A DNA stretch of 37,091 nucleotides, taken from positions 1 through 37,091 of IMG/VR virus record IMGVR_UViG_3300033149_000442, one strand, 5' to 3'. This stretch comes from a virus. A model generated the notes under the pieces. The model searched no databases. It had not been told where the DNA came from and saw nothing but the letters and a program-made list of their open reading frames with translations. A program made the translations under genes and the position numbers. Each line of letters opens with the position of its first letter. Within the stretch, counting starts at the first letter, position 1. Shown here piece by piece: positions 1 to 37,091 of the stretch.

Positions 1-425
1 ATTTTTATAGGATAAAAGCCCTAAGAGACTTTAGTAACATAAAAAAGGGTGATTTAGGAGGCCTTATTTCTAAAGAATCTAATTTATCCCATGAAGGTGA
101 TGCTTGGGTTTACGGAGATGCTCAAGTTTCTGATAATGCTAGAGTTTATGGAAATGCTAGAGTTTATGGAAATGCTTGGGTTCACGGAGATGCTAGAGTT
201 TATGGAAGTGCTTGGGTTTCTGGTAATGCTTGGGTTTCTGGTTATGCTCAAGTTTCTGGTAATGCTAAAGTTTCTGGTTATGCTTGGGTTCACGGAGATG
301 CTAAAGTTTCTGGTTATGCTCAAGTTTCTGGTTATGCTTGGGTTTCTGGTAATGCTGAAGTTTCTGGTTATGCTTGGGTTCACGGAGATGCTAAAGTTTC
401 TGGTAATGCTAAAGTTTATGACTAA
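1..425 (+). CDS. Hexapeptide-repeat (left-handed beta-helix-like) phage protein, 3' part of a gene that crosses the window edge
   Basis: The frame is open from the first base (codons start at position 3) and ends with TAA at 423-425. The visible part starts FYRIKALRDFSN, then KKGDLGGLISKESNLSHEG, followed by 18 six-residue repeats of the form G-(D/N/Y)-A-x-V-(S/Y/H). Such hexapeptide repeats fold as a left-handed parallel beta-helix in known families. The N-terminal RIKALRDFSNIKKGDLGG segment is typical of a phage protein family of unknown function. The start lies at 37031 on the other side of the edge; joined, the product is 161 aa. Long frames on the other strand and in the third frame here are artefacts of the repeat. 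It is an early gene just upstream of the ubiquitin-like cassette. Function is unknown; a structural scaffold or a binding surface is possible. Confidence 0.8.
   Translation, partial: FYRIKALRDFSNIKKGDLGGLISKESNLSHEGDAWVYGDAQVSDNARVYGNARVYGNAWVHGDARVYGSAWVSGNAWVSGYAQVSGNAKVSGYAWVHGDAKVSGYAQVSGYAWVSGNAEVSGYAWVHGDAKVSGNAKVYD
96..419 (+). repeat. 18 tandem copies of an 18-bp coding repeat
   Basis: In frame, 18 copies of a six-codon unit follow each other without interruption, each coding G-x-A-x-V-x. Copies are degenerate, but some pairs are identical: the two-unit block coding GYAWVHGDAKVS occurs twice with the same DNA, near 276-311 and 366-401. The pattern suggests expansion and contraction by slippage or recombination. 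Confidence 0.9.
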
Positions 426-613: not shown

Positions 614-817
614 ATGGCAAAGAATATCACAGTATTAGCAACAGGTGGAACACCAAAAGTAGTTGAAGTATCTACAGTGCAACAAGCATACGATGCACTT
701 AACCTTACTGGTGCAATGACAGCGACAGTTAACGGCGAACCTGCAAACATGACAGATTCAGTATCTGATTTTGCACACGTATCATTTTCTGCTCAAGTAA
801 AGGGTGGAAACAAGTAA
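614..817 (+). CDS. Ubiquitin-like modifier (Prok_Ub / PRTRC protein C-like)
   Basis: A 67-aa protein starting MAKNITVLATGG. Alternating strands (ITVLA, KVVEV), a helix (VQQAYDAL) and further strands (TATVNGE, HVSFSAQVK) fit a small beta-grasp fold. The C-terminus ends VKGGNK: Gly64-Gly65 followed by Asn-Lys. This resembles ubiquitin-like precursors that must be trimmed after Gly-Gly before E1 activation. The start has a strong AAGGAGAA ribosome-binding site. The next three genes code an E2-like protein, a JAMM peptidase and an E1, in the order of PRTRC cassettes (C, B, A, ThiF), which is the strongest support. A terminator directly follows the gene. Sequence alone could also fit a ThiS/MoaD-type sulfur carrier, but the E2 neighbour argues for protein conjugation. 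Confidence 0.72.
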   Translation: MAKNITVLATGGTPKVVEVSTVQQAYDALNLTGAMTATVNGEPANMTDSVSDFAHVSFSAQVKGGNK

Positions 818-863
818 TTATTATTAACTATATAGTTTAATTATAATTCATCTTCTTTTTGAC

Positions 864-913
864 AACCCCCCGATCTTACTAACTACTACACATAGCGTTT
901 GTCGGGGGTTTTT
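864..913 (+). terminator. Rho-independent terminator after the Ubl gene
   Basis: AACCCCCCGA (864-873) can pair with TCGGGGGTTTT (902-912), followed by a T-run to 913. The loop is long (about 28 nt). It sits between the Ubl gene and the E2-like gene, so it should attenuate rather than block the cassette. This would leave Ubl transcripts more abundant than those for the enzymes. Confidence 0.7.
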
Positions 914-933
914 ATTAACTAAACGGAGTATTT

Positions 934-2700
934 ATGGGCAAGAAATACGCAGATTATACAGTGGATGATCTAGTTAGGTTAGATTTATCCTTCTTATTGA
1001 AAGATAAGACAGATGAAGAGAAAGTCGCTCAACGTGACGCTTTCATCTATTTAAAGAATACAGCACGTAGCTGTCGTATAGACATAGGCAATTGGAAACT
1101 ATTGGAAATGTTTGGTGATGGTACGTCTAGCAATATGGTCACAGATAAGGCTAAGATCAATGAGATACTGTTTAGCCGTATCCATGAGTCGAAGGAAGCG
1201 GACGCTACTAATGGCCTAGGGTTTTCATTACTTGGTAATTTCAAGGGTGAGATACTAGAGGCTACTAAGGTTGATTACGATTCCGTTATTAGGAGCCATA
1301 AGAGAGACTTGGAATCAGTGAATACATATCTGACTGACTATCAGAATCGTGTAAATAAGTATATCCGTAGAGCTAGGAATCATCATAAGGAGATTGATGA
1401 GCTAGAGGCTAAGAAATTAGCGGGTATTGCAGACGATACTGTTTATAAAGCAGTACAGCAGATATTATCTAACCCTTACTGGCAATTCATCGGTATTAAG
1501 GACGATGGTAATAAGTTATTGTTCGCTACTACTGAGTATGTGAAGCAATCATTGGTAAATCCGGCCGCAGGGATTAATATACATGTGGAGTATGGTGTTT
1601 ACTACGTAGAGATTAATTTAACCGGAAAGCTTATAAATTGCTACCCGTACATGGATTCGTTGTATGTTTATAATCCGCACCCTCATGTGAGTAGTGGAGG
1701 TACTATATGTTGGGGTAATTACAGTTCTACGGTTCAAGAACATATAGGAGCTGATAGATGGAAAGATGTAATGGATATTTTACAGACGTTATTAACTACA
1801 TACTGCGGTGATAATCCATATACAGCTATTGAAACAATTAATGATTATTATAAGACGTTATTCACACCGCCTGAACAGGTAGATTCAGCTTCTATACTTG
1901 AACAGGTATTTTCAGGTTCAAGTGAGGAGAGCCATAGGCGAGTGATTACTAAGGGTAATTTGGATATGGATACTTATCCGCTCCATGTAACACCGACTCG
2001 TGATGTACCTATCTATTTACCTGCTAATTCATCTTTAGATGAGACACATGAGGATTATCCTTTTATGGCTTATACTCTATCAGGACGTGAGGAAGGGTTA
2101 TTCATCTGGAACATGGAACATAGACGTTTGTATATGACAATGAAGCATAGTGACACACCTGACAGGATTAAGGCTGTGCGTATGTGTTCTGATAGTTCCG
2201 CTAGTGTGTTTGTAGGCCGCGAAGGTGAGATGAATTATAATAAATTTAAGGTGTTTAAGAGTTATAAACACATGCTTAATTCAATACCATTCATGGGTCA
2301 GTCTTTTAGAGAGGAACATGTATTAGATGTGTTCAACTCACATGGTATTTTCATTGGTTCACCTATCGCTAAGATTAGAGAGGATGGGAGTATCCGACGC
2401 AATGGTATACTTAGATCGTTTAACGGTAGACCTACTACTAATAGCTTCTTTAGTGATTACTGGAGTAATGCTACATTTATCTACGGGTATGGTAGTAGCG
2501 ATTGTTACTTCGAGTCAATAGTCCCTCGACCACTTAGAGGTGAGAGTAAGGTCGATTACATAGATAGATTAGAGAAGTATAAATGCAAACTAGCAGAACG
2601 AGGTAACAGGATAATATGTGAGGATAATTGGTCAGTGGCATTAGGTAATTTACTAGACGAGTGGACTAAGATTAATGGAGAGGAATCAAATGAAAGTTAA
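934..2700 (+). CDS. E2-like ubiquitin-conjugating protein (Prok-E2 family D / PRTRC protein B-like), long form
   Basis: 588 aa. Residues 248-262 read PHPHVSSGGTICWGN, matching the UBC-fold active-site signature (HPH...G-x-I-C) with Cys259 as the expected thioester residue and His249/His251 upstream. The C-W-G-N ending resembles PRTRC protein B as I remember that family. Residues 120-165 are charged and helical, probably coiled. The part after about residue 330 (260 residues) has no domain I recognise; it is rich in Tyr, Ser and Gly and contains an FIWNMEHRRLYMTMKHSD strand-like segment. The protein is much longer than a minimal E2 (about 150 aa), so it may carry substrate or Ubl recognition parts. 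Its 3' end overlaps the JAMM gene by 11 bp. Expected role: accept Ubl from the E1 at 3583 and pass it to a target. Confidence 0.7.
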   Translation: MGKKYADYTVDDLVRLDLSFLLKDKTDEEKVAQRDAFIYLKNTARSCRIDIGNWKLLEMFGDGTSSNMVTDKAKINEILFSRIHESKEADATNGLGFSLLGNFKGEILEATKVDYDSVIRSHKRDLESVNTYLTDYQNRVNKYIRRARNHHKEIDELEAKKLAGIADDTVYKAVQQILSNPYWQFIGIKDDGNKLLFATTEYVKQSLVNPAAGINIHVEYGVYYVEINLTGKLINCYPYMDSLYVYNPHPHVSSGGTICWGNYSSTVQEHIGADRWKDVMDILQTLLTTYCGDNPYTAIETINDYYKTLFTPPEQVDSASILEQVFSGSSEESHRRVITKGNLDMDTYPLHVTPTRDVPIYLPANSSLDETHEDYPFMAYTLSGREEGLFIWNMEHRRLYMTMKHSDTPDRIKAVRMCSDSSASVFVGREGEMNYNKFKVFKSYKHMLNSIPFMGQSFREEHVLDVFNSHGIFIGSPIAKIREDGSIRRNGILRSFNGRPTTNSFFSDYWSNATFIYGYGSSDCYFESIVPRPLRGESKVDYIDRLEKYKCKLAERGNRIICEDNWSVALGNLLDEWTKINGEESNES

Positions 2701-3586
2701 AATACCATACGAATTACATGATAAAATTATGTTCTTCGTTCATAAAAGTAGTATCGAAATAAGCATGATGGCACGTATAAAGAAAGAGAAGGATACCTTC
2801 ATACTTACTAACGTGTATTTATTAGATCAAGAGAATACAGCTACCTCTACAGACATTGATGCTACGGCATTAGGTAAGCTGATGTATGAGAGTAGAGAGG
2901 ACGAGGGATTCCTGAATTGTTGGATACATTCTCACGTAAACATGGGTGTGTTCTGGTCGGGGACTGATAAGGATACTATTAAGGAGTTCGGGAGCAATGG
3001 CTTCCTACTCTCCCTAGTATTTAATAAGAAGGGTGAGGTTAGGGCGCATTACTTCCAAGGAGAGCAAGGTGCAGACTCACCGCTTCCTTGGCTAGAGATT
3101 GACGATATACCTGTAGAGATTACATACCCTACAGTTAAAGGTAGAAAAGATTGGGAGAAGGAGTATAGGGAGAAGTGTAGAACTAAAACTTATAATCAAT
3201 CAACATTACCAATGCCGGGAAAGCATCATACCACCACCTTTCCGAACAGCAACTTTGGTGGGAAGAGTGGTGGGAAGCTCAAAGAACAAGCGACTTTAGC
3301 TACTGAAAGAGAACATGGCATGATTAATCCTAAGAACATTAACCAACGGTGGCACACTAACCAATATGGTAAAGGTTCCTGGATGAATTATAAGAAGTTT
3401 GTAAGGAACAACGCTTGGTATGATTCACTTAATGTACTTGACCAGTTAGACGGTGCAAGGAACGCATGGATTAAAATTTATCAGAGAGATAAAGGTGAGA
3501 TGCCACTAGATGATTATGCAGTTAATGACTTCTATATGGAGGTTAAGAAGATGAGTCCTATGGATTTCTATGAGGAGGTAGTATGA
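2690..3586 (+). CDS. JAMM/JAB metallopeptidase (PRTRC protein A-like deubiquitinase)
   Basis: 298 aa from the ATG at 2690, which has GGAGAGG six bases upstream; an ATG at 2675 overlaps that site and is less likely. The JAMM zinc signature is complete: His80-Ser-His82, seven residues, Ser90, two residues, Asp93, with Glu23 on an early strand as the likely catalytic acid. The JAB domain fills about residues 1-150. A Lys/Gly/His-rich linker (about 155-210) and a 90-residue C-terminal part with aromatic and helical character follow; I do not recognise it. Probable role: remove the Asn-Lys tail from the Ubl after Gly65 and/or cleave Ubl from targets. Stop and next start overlap as ATGA. Confidence 0.85.
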   Translation: MKVKIPYELHDKIMFFVHKSSIEISMMARIKKEKDTFILTNVYLLDQENTATSTDIDATALGKLMYESREDEGFLNCWIHSHVNMGVFWSGTDKDTIKEFGSNGFLLSLVFNKKGEVRAHYFQGEQGADSPLPWLEIDDIPVEITYPTVKGRKDWEKEYREKCRTKTYNQSTLPMPGKHHTTTFPNSNFGGKSGGKLKEQATLATEREHGMINPKNINQRWHTNQYGKGSWMNYKKFVRNNAWYDSLNVLDQLDGARNAWIKIYQRDKGEMPLDDYAVNDFYMEVKKMSPMDFYEEVV

Positions 3587-4257
3587 AAGCAAGTTACACA
3601 TTTAAAGATACGTTAGTACGTCAGTCGGATTTAATTCCGATTGATGTACTAAGTAAGAAGATAACTATCATTGGAGCAGGGGCCGTGGGTTCATGGACTG
3701 CTCTAGCATTAGCTAAGATGGGGTTCCTTAACCTTGAGATATGGGACGATGATGTTGTTAGTGTTGAGAATATGAACAACCAAATGTACCCGATCACATC
3801 AATAGATGAACCAAAGGTACAGGCATTAGGGGATATGATTAACATGTTCACTGGTCGCAGGGTTGTAACCATCAATGGTAGATATGAAGGGGAGAAATTA
3901 ACTGGGGATATAGTTATCTCCGCTGTTGATAATATGAAAGTCCGTAAAAGCATTTGGGATAATTCTCGAGCATCATGGCTTATAGACCCTCGAATGGGGG
4001 CTGAGTCTGCGCTGTTATATGTGATGAACCGACAAGACCCTGCTGATAAGGTTACTTATACCAAGACTTTACATACGGACGAAGAGGGGGTGCATGAGCC
4101 ATGTACTGCTAAGTCTACGATCTACTGCTCTAACTTCCTATCCGGTTTGGTAGCTAGGTCAGTGAAGCAGATAGCTACTGCATCTCCTCATACTAGAATC
4201 ATGCAGGCTAACCTGTCTGGTGCTGAGAATATTGTCCAGAGTTGGGGGAAGAAATAA
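3583..4257 (+). CDS. ThiF/E1-like adenylating enzyme (PRTRC ThiF-like), short form
   Basis: 224 aa, a single Rossmann-type adenylation domain. The ATP-binding loop is GAGAVGS at residues 31-37. Acidic residues Asp55-Asp57 precede VENMNNQ, and the conserved Asp116 and Arg121 are in SAVDNMKVR. Cys174 in EPCTAKSTIYC is the best candidate catalytic cysteine; Cys184 is nearby. Most ThiF/E1 proteins have Asn-x-x-Arg-Gln where this one has Asn63-Met-Asn-Asn66-Gln, so the usual nucleotide-contacting Arg is missing. There is no C-terminal ubiquitin-fold domain. Expected role: adenylate the Gly65 end of the Ubl and transfer it to the E2-like protein. It is the last gene of the cassette and is followed by a hairpin. 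Confidence 0.85.
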   Translation: MKASYTFKDTLVRQSDLIPIDVLSKKITIIGAGAVGSWTALALAKMGFLNLEIWDDDVVSVENMNNQMYPITSIDEPKVQALGDMINMFTGRRVVTINGRYEGEKLTGDIVISAVDNMKVRKSIWDNSRASWLIDPRMGAESALLYVMNRQDPADKVTYTKTLHTDEEGVHEPCTAKSTIYCSNFLSGLVARSVKQIATASPHTRIMQANLSGAENIVQSWGKK

Positions 4258-24218: not shown

Positions 24219-25887
24219 TTATCTCCTGAATATTAGAGGGAGCTGATTACCTCTTGGTTTTGTTAATTCATCTAAGTCTAGAAAATCTTCTATAACTTGT
24301 ATATTCTTCTCTGCCGCAGCTTCTACACTTAAAGATTTAAGTCTTTGAATTGTATGCTCTCTTGACAAGGCATTTTCTAGTTCACCTAAATACGAGCTAA
24401 ATACCGGAACTTTACTGTCAGGTAGTGATGTTCTCCCCCACTGGACAAACTCATGTATCTCTTGACTGTTCTTAGGCACTTTATTATATCCCGGAAACAG
24501 TTCAATTGATTCAAATCCCGGATAGTTGTCACGAACTGCCACAGCGTAGGCTAGCTCAGGGCTTGTCCCATTCAACACTGCGAATTTATACTGAGCTTCT
24601 GTCTGTACTTTTTTCTTTAAAGCAATCTGACCGTTGATGTTATCCATCATCTTCTCAATCATTCCCATAGGTTTAGTGAACTCTTGGAGCTTATCGAAAT
24701 ATATCTTAGCCTCTGCTGTCGCTAATGGTTTCCCTATCCTAGTCTTCTTTAATTGGTGAATAGTTCTTTCCCATCTCTCTGCTGTTTTAGCATCTATGTT
24801 TTTTGTATGTACCAACTGATTAAGAGATTCTCTAACCTTGTCTAGATCAGCAGGGGTTTTTGCGTTATACACTTTCTCAGATATAGAGTAACTACTTGTA
24901 GTTACTATCTCCTTAAACCTATCATCTGCAAAGTTTAGTAGTCCACCAAACGCCGAGTATGCTACACTACCTTCCTTACCCATCTCTATAATCTCATCTT
25001 TGATCTTAGCGATTACTTTAGGATCTTCAGTTTTAGCTAAAGCAGAGTAAGCGTTAGCTGCGTTCTCAACTTGAGTCTGCTTAGTATTTGCATCTAATTG
25101 TTTCTGTATCCTATCTTCCTCTTTCCGTCTAGTAGATATAGCTTGGAGCTTCCTATCTCTAATATTCTTTAAAGCTTTGTTCTGATCTTCTGTATTGTAT
25201 AGGTGACTATACTTATTGATTAACAAGTCCACAGCTTGATCGTAGTTCCCCTTCTGGATATGTCCTTCAATAGCTGAGTCAATCAGCGGTCTATGCCCTG
25301 CGAATACAGCTTTAGTAGTTGTATCCTGTGAGGCTCCTGTGTCGGCCATGATCCCACCAACAGTTGATGTGTAGTCTGTAACTATCTCATCAATAGCTTC
25401 GGGGCTAGTGAAAGCCTGTCCGTTCAACTTACTAGTTGTAGCTTCAATTCCTTGAGCAATGAAGTTCTTCTGCTTAGTTAATCCGTTAGCAATAACACCT
25501 TGGCGTACACCATTGATTAGCCCGTTACCAGTTATATTAAACTCAGTACCATACTTACCACCGTACTTCTTATCGTACTCTTTAAGTACAGAGTTAAGTA
25601 CATCAGCAGACTTCCTATCATAGAACTCTTTATCATCTGCTCCTGACCCACCTCTCTGACTTAGTTGTTCATTTAAATCTTGGAGTTTTCTAGTCATAGC
25701 CTGTTTGAAATCAGCTTGTGCTAAAGTCTTCTCTGCTCTAGCTTGCCTCTGCTCTAGTTGATGTAACTTAGAACCAACTGCTGATACACCTCTACCCGCC
25801 TATCCTCGCTGCTGACGATGATTGGAATCCTGTAGGGTTTGAAGGAGCTAATCTTTGACTCTCTTTGAATGATGGTATCGTTGCCAT
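24219..25887 (-). CDS. Internal virion protein (gp15-like), reading frame broken by an apparent +1 frameshift
   Basis: An ATG at 25887 opens MATIPSFKESQRLAPSNPTG..., which ends at TAG (25792-25794) after 31 residues. Shifting +1 at GGC-GGG-TAG continues as GRGVSAVGSKLHQLEQRQAR and runs on into the long frame through MTRKLQDLNEQL to 24219. The two frames overlap only in the six bases 25794-25799. The joined protein is about 555 aa. The first part matches how gp15-like internal proteins begin, so the ATG at 25697 alone would give a truncated protein (492 aa). The rest is helical with long charged segments. Either one extra G in a GGG run (mutation or sequence error) or recoding at a GGG-UAG site explains it. 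Confidence 0.7.
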
Positions 25888-25894
25888 AGTTATC

Positions 25895-26285
25895 CTATAT
25901 TAAGCTTGCCGAACCAGATAGGATAGTCCCACCGGCTTGTAAGAAGTTAGTTGTAGGGTCTGTTAATCTCGCTGCATTAGCTCTAGCTGCATGTGCTTTC
26001 AACGCTGCTTCCTGCTCTAAAACTGTCGTTAAGTATATCAATAGCAGTACCAGAAATCTCAAAGCCTGATGCTCCAAGTCCGGCCATCTGCTCACCTATC
26101 TGTAGTTCAGACTGACGTGCAAATATGTCTTGCTCACGTTGAGAGGCTGCCGCAGCAAACTCAGCTTGCTCATCCAACCATAAGGCGTTCTGTCTCTCAG
26201 CTTCCGCTTGAGCTTTGTTAGCTTGTATCTTCCCAAATACACTGAGGGCTGAACCTGCTGCAAATAGGGCTAGACCTGGTGCCAT
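25895..26285 (-). CDS. Small internal virion protein (gp14-like), reading frame broken by an apparent +1 frameshift
   Basis: ATG at 26285 opens MAPGLALFAAGSALSVFGKI..., with a coiled region AEAERQNALWLDEQAEF, typical of gp14-like internal proteins. This frame turns nonsensical after ILNDS (residue 88) and ends at 25983. A +1 shift within the AAAA run at 26019-26022 (TTTT on the coding strand) continues as LEQEAALKAHAARANAARL, TDPTTNFLQAGG and ends at TAG 25895-25897. That tail is what such proteins normally have. Joined length is 129 aa. GGAGG seven bases before the ATG supports this start. The stop lies 7 bp before the gp15-like ATG. Confidence 0.7.
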
Positions 26286-26286
26286 A

Positions 26287-28395
26287 TTAACCTCCGTTAT
26301 TAGACCCTCTCATAACCATACCTAGTATGTTCATCGGGAGAGGCTCATCTGTTTCCACTATTACAAAGTTCTCATCATCTGGTGACTGAGGTAAGTCCAC
26401 TTGAACATTACCAGAGAACTCTACAGTAGGGTCTTCTAATTCAAAATCATATAGTGACGAACCAACAGAACCATAAGTCCCTGTCTTCGTCTTATATAGT
26501 TTAAGTGTAACACGATCTATTCTATTTATATCGCCCTGACTATTCAAGAGTGGATTAGGCCCTACCTCTAAATTAAGAGTGATTAGCCTAGATGTGTACT
26601 GTAGTCCTACCAGTAACGTAGCTCCTTCGACACCCGGAATAACATTACCTGAACCATCTACAGTTAAATCCTTGTAGACAGTACCAGTAGTTACGTCGAT
26701 AGCTGTTACCACTGTACTAGCTGCGTATGAAGTAGGATACTCACCCGGAGTTCCTCCCTCTATAGTTAATTCAGAATAGTCTAAGTAGTGATCGAAAGCT
26801 TCCTTATCAGTCAGACGTAACACCTGCATACCCACACCACTTGGTGCTACATAGCCAACAAGGTCAATCTTGTCTGTGATTACGTTTAAAGTATCGTCAC
26901 CGGATAATTCTTTCTCTACATAGAAATCAACTACATTACCTTCTACTGGTACAGAACTAAATCCTGTAACCTGTGCTGATCTGTGGAGAGTTACTGAGTA
27001 TAATTTATTATCATCAGTCATGAAATATAAAGTATTAGAAGGTGCATACCAAGTTAATTTCTTTATCCTAGAACTGCCTATTAGATCGTCTGAAAGAGTA
27101 GTAATATTCCTAGAAATGAAAGAACCATTATCATTCGAGTAACCAATCTCGTGTATAGACTTCCTATCTCTTGATACATAGTAAATAAAGTTATCAGCAG
27201 ATGAAGCCTGTATAGATGCTCCACCTTCCCTAGTTTGTGGTAGTGCTGTCCCCGCTGCCATATCCACGGCGAACTCTGTAGATGTAGTGCCTACTAGTAA
27301 AGTCCTAGCTGACTTCATCCAAGAGATTGCATCGCCTTGGGAATCCCCTAGTGTCCTCTCGAAAGGGGAAGCGGCTGTTACTACAGGTGTCCTACTGTAA
27401 GTACCTTCCGACCCTTGAGTGGAATCGAAGTAAAAATTAAACTCAAACATAGACCCTACTTCTGAACTCCATAGAGTTGTAGGTTGAGTCTTGTTACCAC
27501 CGAAGACTAATGCTCCGTTATGCATCTGTACGGTCTTAGGCCATCCACGATAGTTAGACCAGTTGGCTTCATACCAGTAATCCGAGGCTGCTCCTGTAGG
27601 AGTATTAGCGACTAGGACAACAGTACCGGATACCGATGTTGAACTATTGTATGTAACAACCTTAAAAGCATACGTATTAAAGTTGGGAGCTGTTCCACCT
27701 TGATCTACATAGAAGAAAGTGTTCTCATGCCCTTCATCAAATATAGGATCAGAGGCTACGAACGTAAGTGAGGCCCCAATAGTAGGCGTAGCACTTGGTG
27801 ATATAGTTGTAGATGTATTATTAGGCTTACCTATAGGCATACCAAATACTCTGTGTGTATTAACTTGGCTAGTTGAATCAGCTGATAAAGTTATCTCATC
27901 AGTCCAGTTCTGGAACGTGAACTTACTACTTAACGGTAGCGCACTTGGGAAAGTCTCGCTGATTATAATAGGCTCTAAATCACCAGTGGCGTGTACTATA
28001 ATTAAGTCTCTATTATGCTGTACCCAACCTAATTGAGAAGCGTCATCCACGTTCTCTAAGTTAGTAATAACCCCTGCACTTATAAAATCGTTTGTAAACG
28101 TAGGGTCATTCTCCTGATATATCTCAGCGTTGTTACCAACTTTTACAATGACGTTAACAGTAGAACCATCGAGTTGTGTGAATGGGATACGAGTGTAGTT
28201 ACCTAGAGTATCTACGAAATCATTCCCACCAAGTTTAAATCCATTACGCCTAGATGCTCCACCTGATCTGTAGATGTGCATGTTAGTCAGTTCTTTTAAA
28301 CCTGTCTTATACTCATTCACCTCTGTACGTGAAACTAGCTTAGGGCTGACCTGCCCAGAAATGAATGAGTTCTGCATATAGTGATATCTAGGCAT
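26287..28395 (-). CDS. Tail tubular protein B (T7 gp12-like nozzle)
   Basis: 702 aa starting MPRYHYMQNSFISGQVSPKL. The opening SFISGQVSPKL...TEVNEYKTGLKELTNMHIYRSGGASRRNGFK is characteristic of the podovirus tail-nozzle family. The body is beta-rich with WTDEITLSAD and ANWSNYRGWPKTVQMHNGAL. It follows the gp11-like gene directly. It should form the distal tail tube through which DNA passes. Confidence 0.85.
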   Translation of the reverse strand: MPRYHYMQNSFISGQVSPKLVSRTEVNEYKTGLKELTNMHIYRSGGASRRNGFKLGGNDFVDTLGNYTRIPFTQLDGSTVNVIVKVGNNAEIYQENDPTFTNDFISAGVITNLENVDDASQLGWVQHNRDLIIVHATGDLEPIIISETFPSALPLSSKFTFQNWTDEITLSADSTSQVNTHRVFGMPIGKPNNTSTTISPSATPTIGASLTFVASDPIFDEGHENTFFYVDQGGTAPNFNTYAFKVVTYNSSTSVSGTVVLVANTPTGAASDYWYEANWSNYRGWPKTVQMHNGALVFGGNKTQPTTLWSSEVGSMFEFNFYFDSTQGSEGTYSRTPVVTAASPFERTLGDSQGDAISWMKSARTLLVGTTSTEFAVDMAAGTALPQTREGGASIQASSADNFIYYVSRDRKSIHEIGYSNDNGSFISRNITTLSDDLIGSSRIKKLTWYAPSNTLYFMTDDNKLYSVTLHRSAQVTGFSSVPVEGNVVDFYVEKELSGDDTLNVITDKIDLVGYVAPSGVGMQVLRLTDKEAFDHYLDYSELTIEGGTPGEYPTSYAASTVVTAIDVTTGTVYKDLTVDGSGNVIPGVEGATLLVGLQYTSRLITLNLEVGPNPLLNSQGDINRIDRVTLKLYKTKTGTYGSVGSSLYDFELEDPTVEFSGNVQVDLPQSPDDENFVIVETDEPLPMNILGMVMRGSNNGG

Positions 28396-28403
28396 TTTAT
28401 CTC

Positions 28404-28997
28404 CTACGGTATATCGTGCACAAAAGGAATGTCAGAAGCAAAGTGATCTCTAGCTACCAAGAAACTATCATCAGTCAACTGAGGAGGTGTTCCTTCCTGA
28501 GCGTTGAATGACCTAGCTTGTGCTAGTGCGAACTCTTTCTCTTGCTGTAATTGCGACCTATAAGCTTTATCCTGCACTAGTGCATAAGATAAGTCATAGG
28601 CTATATCTAAGGCTAGGGCTTCTTCAAAAGCAGGTGAGAATATATCCTCATCAACTTCTGCGATATACCTAACTCTGATTGTATCATCATTTGCTAATAT
28701 AGTTTCGCCTTCCATCTTCCACTCTTTAGATAAGACTTCCAAATCTAAGATTCTTAAATAATCTGTTGGTAGATCGAATTTGTTATCAAACCCAAATACA
28801 GGTACTTCACCTGTAGCAGTGAGTTCTTCTCTTTGGATAGCGAAGTTCCAAGGATCATTGTAAAGCATCTTACGCTTTGACTTTGAGTATTGTTGATTGC
28901 AGAGCTTAGCTCTTTTATTGTTATCTGTAAGAGCAGTGATAGGTTCCGCCCCTAATTTGATTAATGCTGAATTGCAAATATCTAGCTGCGTAGCCAT
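28404..28997 (-). CDS. Tail tubular protein A (T7 gp11-like adaptor)
   Basis: 197 aa starting MATQLDICNSALIKLGAEPI. The N-terminal ICNSALIKLG...QQYSKSKRKMLYNDPWNFA is typical of gp11-like head-tail adaptor proteins, which form a 12-fold ring between portal and nozzle. An ILDLEV strand region and a helical C-terminus follow. It lies between the decoration gene and the nozzle gene. Confidence 0.85.
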   Translation of the reverse strand: MATQLDICNSALIKLGAEPITALTDNNKRAKLCNQQYSKSKRKMLYNDPWNFAIQREELTATGEVPVFGFDNKFDLPTDYLRILDLEVLSKEWKMEGETILANDDTIRVRYIAEVDEDIFSPAFEEALALDIAYDLSYALVQDKAYRSQLQQEKEFALAQARSFNAQEGTPPQLTDDSFLVARDHFASDIPFVHDIP

Positions 28998-33728: not shown

Positions 33729-35093
33729 CTAAATGATATCGTAATCATCCATTATTGCCTGTCTTTGTAAGTCTTCCGTATTACGACGACCTGTACGAGC
33801 AGGGTTGTATATCAGACCTAATTGCCTGAAAGCATCTGACCCATTAGAAGCCCAATCATGTAAAGGCTTATCCATAAACATCTTAGCCTTTGTATCATAC
33901 TTCCTCTGATAATTCTTCAACGCTGCTAACCCCTGCGCACAGTTCTGACCATCGAACCAACACTTAGGGAGTATCATCCTCACGGCATGGATACCATCAG
34001 CAACACTCTGTCTCTGTACTATATTAGTCCTTAATCCTAAATCCATCAAGGTTTCTTGTCTAGTCTGACCTGTCCCTAATTCCCTAGCCGCTCCATCGTG
34101 AGGTATATAGTGATCCCCATACACGTACGGCTTAAGCTTAATCTCTGCGGCATACCACTCAAGACCCTTACCTGCCATCTCTATATAATCAATGACGTGA
34201 ATCTCATTACCTACGTACTGGACAAACCAGATAGCAGTAGTATCGGATACCCCCAAATCCCAAAAGGTATCAACAGGTATAGTGTTGTCATAAGGTACTT
34301 TAGTAATCTGACCTGCTTTCTCCAAGTCGTTAATATACTTACCATAGTAGGCTCCCATCAATGCAGCTGCGAATGAACACTCATATTCCTGATCGTATTC
34401 TTCCTCCGTCATCGTCGCCCGTGCATCCTCTAATTCATCAAACTCCAATACCTTAGTCTCTGATGCCCTGTGGATTGCCACATACCAAGAATCAATACCC
34501 TTAGCTGCGTTAAATATATCCCAGAAATGGTTCTGCCCTTTAGGTGTACCAATAAATATAGCCCACCCCCTACGGTCAGATAGTGCAGGACGTATTACCT
34601 GCCCCCAAATCGTAGGGTCACACTGCGCATACTCATCCAGAATACAACCATCCAAGTAAATACCACGCAATGAATCAGGGTTCTCAGCCCCTAATAACAT
34701 AAATCTAATCTTATCACCCTTATCAGGGCGAGCAATATCAATCCGTAAGTCACCCTCATGTACCTTCACACCCGGAATATTCTTAGTAAAGTCTTTCAAA
34801 TACTCCCAAGCAACCCTCTTGGCCTGCCCGTATGTTGGTGCAATATAAGCATACTGCGGATTCTTCAAGTCACATCTAAGCCCTTGGTCAATCATCTCCA
34901 TAATAGCGAAGACTGTTTTACCAAAACGCCTGTGACATACCAGTACGTTAAATCTCTTCAGCTTCCCATGTAACCTAGCCTGAAACGGTCTAGGCGTATA
35001 GCCCATCTCTATGACCTGCTTACCTGCGTAAGCGTCCACCTCTTCGGGTGTAGGCATCAATGGATCTGAATATACGTTATATGGGTTGCTCAT
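33729..35093 (-). CDS. Terminase large subunit
   Basis: 454 aa. Walker A is VCHRRFGKT with Lys59-Thr60. Walker B and catalytic Glu are ILDEYAQ (Asp153, Glu154). The coupling motif is FIGTPKGQNHFWD. The nuclease domain begins DTFWDLGVSDTTAIWF with Asp279 and Asp284. It packages DNA through the portal and cuts concatemers. The start overlaps the previous stop (TAATG). Confidence 0.95.
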   Translation of the reverse strand: MSNPYNVYSDPLMPTPEEVDAYAGKQVIEMGYTPRPFQARLHGKLKRFNVLVCHRRFGKTVFAIMEMIDQGLRCDLKNPQYAYIAPTYGQAKRVAWEYLKDFTKNIPGVKVHEGDLRIDIARPDKGDKIRFMLLGAENPDSLRGIYLDGCILDEYAQCDPTIWGQVIRPALSDRRGWAIFIGTPKGQNHFWDIFNAAKGIDSWYVAIHRASETKVLEFDELEDARATMTEEEYDQEYECSFAAALMGAYYGKYINDLEKAGQITKVPYDNTIPVDTFWDLGVSDTTAIWFVQYVGNEIHVIDYIEMAGKGLEWYAAEIKLKPYVYGDHYIPHDGAARELGTGQTRQETLMDLGLRTNIVQRQSVADGIHAVRMILPKCWFDGQNCAQGLAALKNYQRKYDTKAKMFMDKPLHDWASNGSDAFRQLGLIYNPARTGRRNTEDLQRQAIMDDYDII

Positions 35094-35440: not shown

Positions 35441-35628
35441 TACTTACTCGCTTTCTTTTTAGATACCTTCTTCTTAGCTTTCTTCTTCACTACTGGCTTC
35501 TCCTCAGTCTTCGGTTCCTCCGATTTCTGCTCCGATAGCTTCAATAGCTTCTTCTCTTCCGCTTCCTTCTGCTCCATGAACGTGTTGAATGGAATCCTCT
35601 GACCGTTCACCAATACAAATTTCTTCAT
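35440..35628 (-). CDS. Small Lys-rich protein
   Basis: 62 aa, MKKFVLVNGQRIPFNTFMEQ then Glu/Lys-rich sequence ending in an extremely basic tail (KKKAKKKVSKKKASK). The tail resembles histone-like DNA- or RNA-binding tails. AGAGGT seven bases before the ATG supports translation. It overlaps the end of the small terminase gene by 125 bp in another frame, which is unusual. Its last 64 bp are free of overlap. Confidence 0.55.
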   Translation of the reverse strand: MKKFVLVNGQRIPFNTFMEQKEAEEKKLLKLSEQKSEEPKTEEKPVVKKKAKKKVSKKKASK

Positions 35629-36142
35629 TATTTACCTCTATAGTAGTTGGTTCTCTATTTATTCCAGTGTTTATTACAATCATAGCAGGAGCCGCGCTCT
35701 GCTGCAACACTTGTGGTTTAGCATTGAAAGCCTCTGGATTGCCACGTTCCGCTAATTTGAGGAATCCGTCGAACTGTAACTTATGCCCCGGAACTTCCTC
35801 CTTACTTGCACCATCCGCTCCCTTAAGTACCTCAACTGCTTTATCGTGGTAGTATTCTGCTCTATCCTTCCTAGCTATCTCCAAATTCTTTTTAAAATCT
35901 GGGTGGAATCTGCGCCAATTATACATTAAATGTAGAGGCGGCATCCCCTCAATCTCTGATATCTCATTCAGAGTCTTCCCTTCCCTCACCAAGTTGCAGA
36001 TCGCTTCCGCTATTTCCAAACTGTAGACGAAACTTGCGACGAGTCTCCCTGATGTCGCTACCAGTTCCCCTGTGTGGATATTGAATGTCTCTAATTCTTT
36101 TGTCTGCTTGTTTAGCAGTGTCATTGTGCTGCTTGTTTCCAA
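35504..36142 (-). CDS. Terminase small subunit (putative)
   Basis: 212 aa from a TTG start at 36142, chosen because a perfect GGAGG lies five bases upstream; the next ATG is at 36124. Residues 45-95 look like a helix-turn-helix plus helices: ICNLVREGKTLNEISEIEGM, then WRRFHPDFKKNLEIARKDRA. That pattern is typical of phage small terminases. The C-terminal 45 residues are acidic. It should recognise the packaging site. It is the first secure late gene, 180 bp downstream of a terminator. Confidence 0.7.
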   Translation of the reverse strand: METSSTMTLLNKQTKELETFNIHTGELVATSGRLVASFVYSLEIAEAICNLVREGKTLNEISEIEGMPPLHLMYNWRRFHPDFKKNLEIARKDRAEYYHDKAVEVLKGADGASKEEVPGHKLQFDGFLKLAERGNPEAFNAKPQVLQQSAAPAMIVINTGINREPTTIEVNNEEICIGERSEDSIQHVHGAEGSGREEAIEAIGAEIGGTED

Positions 36143-36287
36143 GGTTACCTCCCTTATGAAGACCTTTCTTTAGCTTCCTGACAACATTAGTCAGGTATCT
36201 ATAGCGTCGATTCGCTTTTTTTAATTTATTCCTTAGCTCTTTATTCTCTTCCCAGAGCTTCTTCAATAGTTCTTGCTCTTTATCCAT
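35964..36287 (-). CDS. Possible small coiled protein overlapping the small terminase gene
   Basis: ATG at 36287 opens MDKEQELLKKLWEENKELRN, a charged coiled helix, then basic sequence; 107 aa in all. No ribosome-binding site is visible. More than half lies inside the small terminase gene in another frame. The N-terminal half looks like protein, the C-terminal half like shadow sequence. It may be real, or chance. Confidence 0.3.
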   Translation of the reverse strand: MDKEQELLKKLWEENKELRNKLKKANRRYRYLTNVVRKLKKGLHKGGNLGNKQHNDTAKQADKRIRDIQYPHRGTGSDIRETRRKFRLQFGNSGSDLQLGEGREDSE

Positions 36288-36321
36288 AACATAGCGTAGC
36301 AGTGTCGCCAAGAAAAAGGAA

Positions 36322-36346
36322 GCCCCAGCTCATGGAAAACTGGGGC
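36322..36346 (-). terminator. Rho-independent terminator upstream of the late block
   Basis: GCCCCAG (36322-36328) pairs with CTGGGGC (36340-36346), loop 11 nt, followed on the - strand by TTCCTTTTTCTT. Transcripts entering from 36350 and beyond must pass it to reach the terminase and structural genes. Confidence 0.8.
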
Positions 36347-36377
36347 GGCGAACTAAGAGTTTTTCTGGCGAAGAAAA

Positions 36378-36430
36378 GACACTACTCAATGCTATACGGT
36401 TTACTGTTTTAGGTCATTGGGTAGTGCGTC
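36378..36430. repeat. Long-armed inverted repeat in the divergent region
   Basis: GACACTACTCAATG (36378-36391) and CATTGGGTAGTGCGTC (36415-36430) are inverted copies apart from a 2-base gap and one mismatch. They flank 23 bp. A TATAAT (36435-36440) lies just outside. Candidate operator or cruciform in the region between the two transcription blocks. Confidence 0.5.
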
Positions 36431-36499
36431 ATAGTATAATCGGTTTTTTGGTCTGTAGGCTAGGGGTGACCTATCGATGCCCTACAAGTTATAAAGGGG

Positions 36500-36571
36500 G
36501 GAGCCCCGACCCGCTAAAGCGCGCGCATACGCGCCCACGCGCCCGCGATGAATGAACGGGTGCGCCCGTGC
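36500..36571. other. GC-rich island in an AT-rich genome
   Basis: Roughly 70 bp dense in GCGC and CGCG steps, including two ACGCGCCC copies and ACGGGTGCGCCCGT, which can form a 5-bp stem. The composition differs sharply from the rest. No gene is present. Candidate origin, packaging or regulatory element. Confidence 0.5.
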
Positions 36572-36580
36572 TATACATAT

Positions 36581-36676
36581 CCCGTGGGATCAATTCGATA
36601 CTACCCTGTGGAGTCAATCTGACACTGACTGGTGTCACAATGCACCGCCGGTTCGGTGTCACATCGACACTAGGCT
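36581..36676. repeat. Degenerate 24-bp repeat (iteron-like) array
   Basis: Blocks at 36581 and 36605 align over 22 bp with six differences, all transitions. TCA-N4-GA(T/C)ACT-type cores lie at 36590-36602, 36614-36626 and 36659-36671. GGTGTCACA occurs at 36631-36639 and 36655-36663, again 24 bp apart. Dyads TGACAC-N6-GTGTCA (36620-36637) and GTGTC-N5-GACAC (36656-36670) are embedded. It may be a replication origin or binding sites for an activator of the promoter at 36701. Confidence 0.55.
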
Positions 36677-36700
36677 ACCTGATTTCAGCTACTTACAACT

Positions 36701-36716
36701 TGGCACAGGGCTTGCT
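36701..36716 (+). promoter_or_regulatory. Near-consensus sigma-54 promoter (-24/-12) for the early block
   Basis: TGGCACAGGGCTTGCT follows the sigma-54 pattern TGGCAC-R-N4-TTGC-W at every fixed position, with GG and GC separated by exactly 10 bp and a T before it. A start about 12 bp downstream, near 36727, would drive the + strand block, with repeat dyads 30-80 bp upstream in the usual place for activator sites. Confidence 0.6.
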
Positions 36717-36783
36717 TGTTAATTGGCAACGACATCATGGGCAATTGTGCTTGTGACAATATGCACTACTAAATCACGAACAG

Positions 36784-36948
36784 GTGAGGCGTAGGCACCT
36801 TTTAAGGGATGCGTACGACAAGCAAATAATTAAACCGGCAGATACTTACGCTAGGGTAAAGAAATTGGAAAAGTCTAAGAGATTAGTAGATAGATTATAC
36901 AACCAACTGCTAGATGCTTATGGAGTACCACCGTTACCAAAACAATAG
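36784..36948 (+). CDS. Small basic protein, first gene of the early block (putative)
   Basis: 54 aa from GTG at 36784, ending LDAYGVPPLPKQ at TAG 36946-36948. It is basic and helical (KKLEKSKRLVDRLYNQLL). No good ribosome-binding site is seen and the start is uncertain; the frame is open from 36757. It follows the sigma-54-like promoter and precedes the hexapeptide gene. Confidence 0.4.
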   Translation: MRRRHLLRDAYDKQIIKPADTYARVKKLEKSKRLVDRLYNQLLDAYGVPPLPKQ

Positions 36949-36952
36949 AACT

Positions 36953-36968
36953 TGGCATGATACGTGCA
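36953..36968 (+). promoter_or_regulatory. Second, weaker sigma-54-like element
   Basis: TGGCATGATACGTGCA has GG and GC exactly 10 bp apart and differs from the -24/-12 consensus at two positions. It lies about 60 bp before the hexapeptide gene start. A GTGAC-N6-GTCAC dyad follows at 36983-36998. Confidence 0.3.
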
Positions 36969-37030
36969 TAATAATAGTAAACGTGACGCTAATGTCACAT
37001 AATAGCCAAATAATGGCAAAGGATAGAATT

Positions 37031-37091
37031 ATGAGTATTTTCGATGGAATTAAGATTGACGTTGTTAAACCAGTAACAAGAGATGGAGAGG
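37031..37091 (+). CDS. 5' part of the hexapeptide-repeat protein (continues at base 1)
   Basis: ATG at 37031 follows a weak AGGAT ribosome-binding site. The visible part reads MSIFDGIKIDVVKPVTRDGE. The frame runs off the right edge with one base of the next codon (G). The first two bases of the window (AT) complete it to GAT, and the frame then continues as FYRIKALRDF. This exact continuity is the main evidence that the window is a circle cut inside this gene. A sigma-54-like element at 36953-36968 lies about 60 bp upstream. Confidence 0.8.
   Translation, partial: MSIFDGIKIDVVKPVTRDGE

Follow-up and report, generated by a model that had tools for sequence, protein, structure and literature searches.

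The 37,091-nucleotide stretch analyzed here (IMG/VR record IMGVR_UViG_3300033149_000442, hereafter the window) comes from an uncultured short-tailed phage (podovirus) and covers all or nearly all of its genome. The gene map, judged by the gene order of related contigs, closes into a ring. We consider it probable that this ring was broken during assembly at a strain variant, within a small gene for a hexapeptide-repeat protein that is now split between the two ends. The window encodes packaging, portal, capsid, tail, internal virion and lysis-type genes as well as primase-helicase, SNF2 helicase, polymerase and nuclease genes (main features in Table 1). A first-pass annotation had taken the window to be probably complete, and this was borne out, at least to near completeness, by the presence of all expected modules and by relatives that span the junction reciprocally.

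Table 1. Coordinates and supporting evidence of the features discussed in the text
Feature	Positions	Strand	Evidence or remark
3' part of split gene	1..425	+	rest of codon 21, FYRIKALRDF...KKGDLGG core, 18-nt (hexapeptide) repeats, stop at 423-425
67-aa Ubl-like protein	614..817	+	first intact early gene past the junction; synteny marker, divergent from terS-terL in L004, L005, L017 and L020
Tail protein and p197	26287..28997	-	neighbors in the window; G004 is opened between them
Terminase large subunit	33729..35093	-	PHROG 2, 2e-41; 48% to HTVC204P
Terminase small subunit, Sf6 gp1-like	35504..36142	-	PF20901, 6.1e-18; PDB 3hef, 1.7e-6; annotated from the longest open frame
Variable interval upstream of terS	36143..37030		window and L002 differ by strain indels
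5' part of split gene	37031..37091	+	ATG, 19 codons and first base of codon 21 (MSIFDGIKIDVVKPVTRDGE + G); sequence, AAGGA

Ring order in related contigs

Four related contigs (L004, L005, L017 and L020) each carry, on a single contig, a gene for a ubiquitin-like protein (Ubl) upstream of and divergent from terS-terL, and this gene is accompanied by those for the E2-like, JAB and ThiF proteins wherever the contig extends that far. In two others (L021 and L029), the D5 and SNF2 genes take this place and orientation relative to terS-terL, again on one contig. The gene order in all six is the one predicted by joining the ends of the window. The reverse case is found in G004 (IMGVR_UViG_3300027996_000002; 42,249 bp), in which the two ends overlap by 127 bp, a length that is also the maximum k-mer size in common use with SPAdes. 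G004 shares the ring order with the window, including the Ubl-E2-JAB-E1 cassette and the divergent terS-terL genes, but its opening separates p197 from the tail gene, two genes that adjoin inside the window. Unlike the window, however, it has no hexapeptide gene at the place of the junction. The window and G004 thus each run through the opening of the other, and their maps show a common ring order.

The interval between the Ubl gene and terS would measure 1.56 kb in the joined window compared to about 2.4 to 4.0 kb in L004, L005, L017 and L020. Its gene content varies among the relatives, and we found no gene in it that is common to most of them, so that the absence of any one gene from the window is uninformative. 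A search for early-module neighbors of the same species gave none with the 588-aa protein and only G004 (53%) with the D5 protein. The window had been described as a closed circle; of this, the ring-like map stands, whereas the exact adjacency of the two ends is only probable.

The gene probably divided between the ends

The window ends in ...AGAGATGGAGAGG, and its last base, G37091, forms a GAT codon (Asp) with A1 and T2. From the ATG at 37031, 20 whole codons and this single base lead up to the end of the window, and the joined frame then continues, with FYRIKALRDF directly after the Asp, to a stop ending at 425. The resulting 161 codons agree with the first-pass annotation, which had read the last gene in frame into base 1 and given its product as 161 aa. 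The open stretch in this frame is longer, starting 178 bases before the junction (200 codons). A Shine-Dalgarno (SD)-like AAGGA lies 7 nt upstream of the ATG, which is preceded by AAAGGATAGAATT. A gap of 0 or 3n nt at the junction keeps the start fragment in phase, whereas a gap of 1 or 2 nt puts it out of phase, with a stop after 2 or 4 codons.

The joined protein matches PHROG 7964 (E value, 1.4e-62) and PHROG 5070 (5.8e-57), a hexapeptide-repeat family with which it shares the core YRIKALRDFxxxKKGDLGG...NLS and the VxGxA repeats. However, most homologues in these families have an N-terminal KYELTxET segment, and the joined protein does not. Among 80 homologues taken from IMG/VR, most start with M(K)KYELTxETKxxxGKTLYRIKAL, and no segment of the KYELTxET type is present in the joined N terminus, MSIFDGIKIDVVKPVTRDGE. 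We had expected a fixed-register N-terminal profile to support the join, but the result went against it: the joined N terminus scored -19 compared to at least -8 for the homologues, below all 64 distinct ones, and in a gapped HMM it contributed only about 2 bits beyond the core. The claim that the known-looking motif gains an N terminus by joining is in agreement with the length and the ribosome-binding site, although the residues are unlike the N-terminal consensus of the family.

At any junction, the phase alone would match in one case out of three. We therefore paired every possible end in the genome (73,784 on both strands) with base 1. An open frame with an ATG 12 to 28 codons back was obtained for 10.9% of these hypothetical ends, and an SD-like 5-mer was present in addition for 0.8%; only 0.09% also reached or exceeded the profile score of the real end (profile of 68 homologous N termini). 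When 0 to 15 missing codons were allowed at the junction, 0 and 1 fitted best, by about 3 bits. The junction 24-mer was found in no IMG/VR contig, and the sequence just after base 1 had no match there. IFDGIKID was also encoded in 14 further contigs, always in an unrelated reading frame, and no contig with the hexapeptide gene carried the early cassette of this phage or its terS.

As proposed by the first-pass annotation, the two broken genes at the ends are very probably one, with frame, ATG and SD-like sequence all fitting. Direct adjacency of the ends, or a single missing codon, is favored by the sequence; because the N terminus does not match the family (KYEL being absent), we regard the join as probable and not as proven. 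A different reading keeps the ring order but supposes that tens of bases to about 2 kb were lost at the junction and that the in-frame join is a coincidence. The start at 37031 would then be that of a different gene, or this gene would have lost part of its sequence in the record. The deviating N terminus and the larger Ubl-terS spacing of the relatives, which have extra small genes there, speak for such a loss, whereas the small share of arbitrary ends that combine an ATG, an SD-like sequence and an open frame speaks against it. Moreover, since the interval holds no gene common to most relatives, nothing specific is lost. We consider a missing stretch rather doubtful.

The break at base 37091 and the ends of the virion DNA

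A second contig, L002 (IMGVR_UViG_3300033141_000445), starts at exactly window base 37091. Under arbitrary opening of the ring, such a shared end would be expected about once in 37,000 cases; because of this coincidence, the opening is unlikely to be random and a shared cause is needed. We rejected L002 as an independent strain, as it comes from the same population as the window. The two differ at about 4 positions between 26.5 and 36.5 kb, while a cluster of differences lies at 25.7 to 26.5 kb and a cluster of indels at 36.58 to 36.88 kb. The former (25683-26500, next to the other end of L002) holds 82 of about 100 differences, which suggests recombination or an assembly that switched between strains. 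In the latter (36578-36880 in the window and 1-520 in L002), about 84 nt are inserted near 36799 and about 64 nt are lost near 36578-36642. This stretch is non-coding and contains a short conserved block in common with L031 (80% over 91 nt, 36620-36708). A strong terminator-like hairpin (10 pairs and a T-rich tail) is found upstream of terS at 36322-36346 on the minus strand.

When coexisting strains differ by an indel that a de Bruijn graph does not resolve, the left and right contigs would be expected to abut without overlap. We propose that the opening lies where the early and late operons diverge, the former running rightward and the latter leftward with terS first, and that the assembly met such a variant, probably an indel, at 37091 in the variable interval between them. 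The opening would fall inside codon 21 of the small hexapeptide-repeat gene, whose two fragments would adjoin directly or be separated by a few missing codons. We prefer this cause to a true DNA end, which is less likely, because the same population was present in both assemblies and because the interval shows strain indels and variable gene content.

If 37091|1 were instead a physical end of linear virion DNA, cohesive or blunt, it would lie inside an open reading frame, and the gene, split between the packaged ends, would be whole and expressible only once the DNA circularizes on infection. That the window and L002, contigs of one virus, share this terminal base is in line with such an end, but is also explained by strain variation. 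The site is located about 950 bp upstream of terS, and cos or pac sites of tailed phages often lie upstream of this gene. On the other hand, the end would cut a gene, and the short overlap between termini that filling-in of 5' overhangs leaves is not seen. The relatives assemble through the region, with G004 closing as a ring, and TerS resembles that of Sf6, a headful phage. Since L002 represents the same population, a common assembly cause is sufficient, and the shared end argues less strongly for a physical terminus. Taken together, we judge a physical end improbable. We give slightly less credence still to a reading along the lines of the first-pass annotation, which took the genome to be circularly permuted or terminally redundant; in this reading it would be both, and the assembly would have been opened at an arbitrary point. 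In its favor, most Skadi isolates (see below) were assembled as circles and their records place terL at many positions, and MEP301 has been interpreted in this way (PMC8024684). However, the record has no k-mer end overlap, unlike G004, and the shared end at 37091 argues against random opening, although permutation as such may hold.

Neither permutation nor terminal redundancy found support in the record, which has no terminal direct repeat of 1 to 399 bases and no terminal inverted repeat of 8 to 399 bases. Fixed direct terminal repeats of the T7-like kind are thus not seen in the record either, although such repeats are collapsed by assembly. A permuted or redundant virion does not follow from the closing map, because cohesive ends give the same join; gene order carries no information on virion ends. 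The terminases do not decide the question either, TerS being Sf6-like and the relatives of TerL including T5-like phages and P74-26. Of ten Skadi isolates, which are of the HTVC010P type, nine were assembled as circles, and 125-bp end repeats were reported in four (PMC10504331). Their records (OP131293-OP131302) are near-identical, yet terL lies at many different places in them and varies in strand. Because of this variation, the "direct terminal repeats" that were published may represent overlaps left by assembly instead of genuine termini.

In our preferred account, the window is a ring whose opening falls in the interval between early and late genes, and it has one split gene instead of two. 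The junction finding in itself is ordinary: contig ends that join in frame are weak evidence for virion topology, as the phase matches in one case out of three and unresolved strain variants can make ends abut.

The ubiquitin-like cassette and the relation to pelagiphages

Of more interest than the junction is the four-gene cassette beside it (614-4257, plus strand) in the early operon of this podovirus, which also occurs in L004, L005/L036, L017 (Ubl only) and L020. The 67-aa Ubl has an invariant KGG near its C terminus, the 588-aa protein an E2-like H.H...(I/V)C(W/Y)G motif and the JAB protein a perfect HSH-x7-SGTD metalloprotease motif. The ThiF/E1 protein (Pfam, 8.8e-18) contains GAGAVGS and a conserved cysteine in E-x-CTAKST; PADLOC models matched only this E1 in the cassette. 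By these motifs, the cassette looks like a complete ubiquitin-like conjugation system. Iyer et al. (2006, PMC1779556) described Ubl together with JAB in clusters of phage tail genes, and operons of the Ubl-JAB-E1-E2 type in bacteria. No HTVC010P-type isolate was present among the best ThiF matches listed.

At the DNA level, positions 1-24000 of the window had no match in the phage collection. No TerL match was obtained in cellular genomes. The nearest relatives of TerL are those of HTVC010P-type pelagiphages, followed by a spread that includes T5-like phages and P74-26. It is 43 to 48% identical, over about 90%, to the TerL proteins of HTVC010P, HTVC204P and Polarivirus skadi. HTVC010P-type Pelagibacter podoviruses also have the late genes terL, connector, capsid and tail tube in the same order as the window, and, like the window, they have genomes of 34 to 37 kb and circular assemblies. 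The homologous TerL and connector and the shared late gene order indicate that the virus is a podovirus related to the HTVC010P-type pelagiphages.
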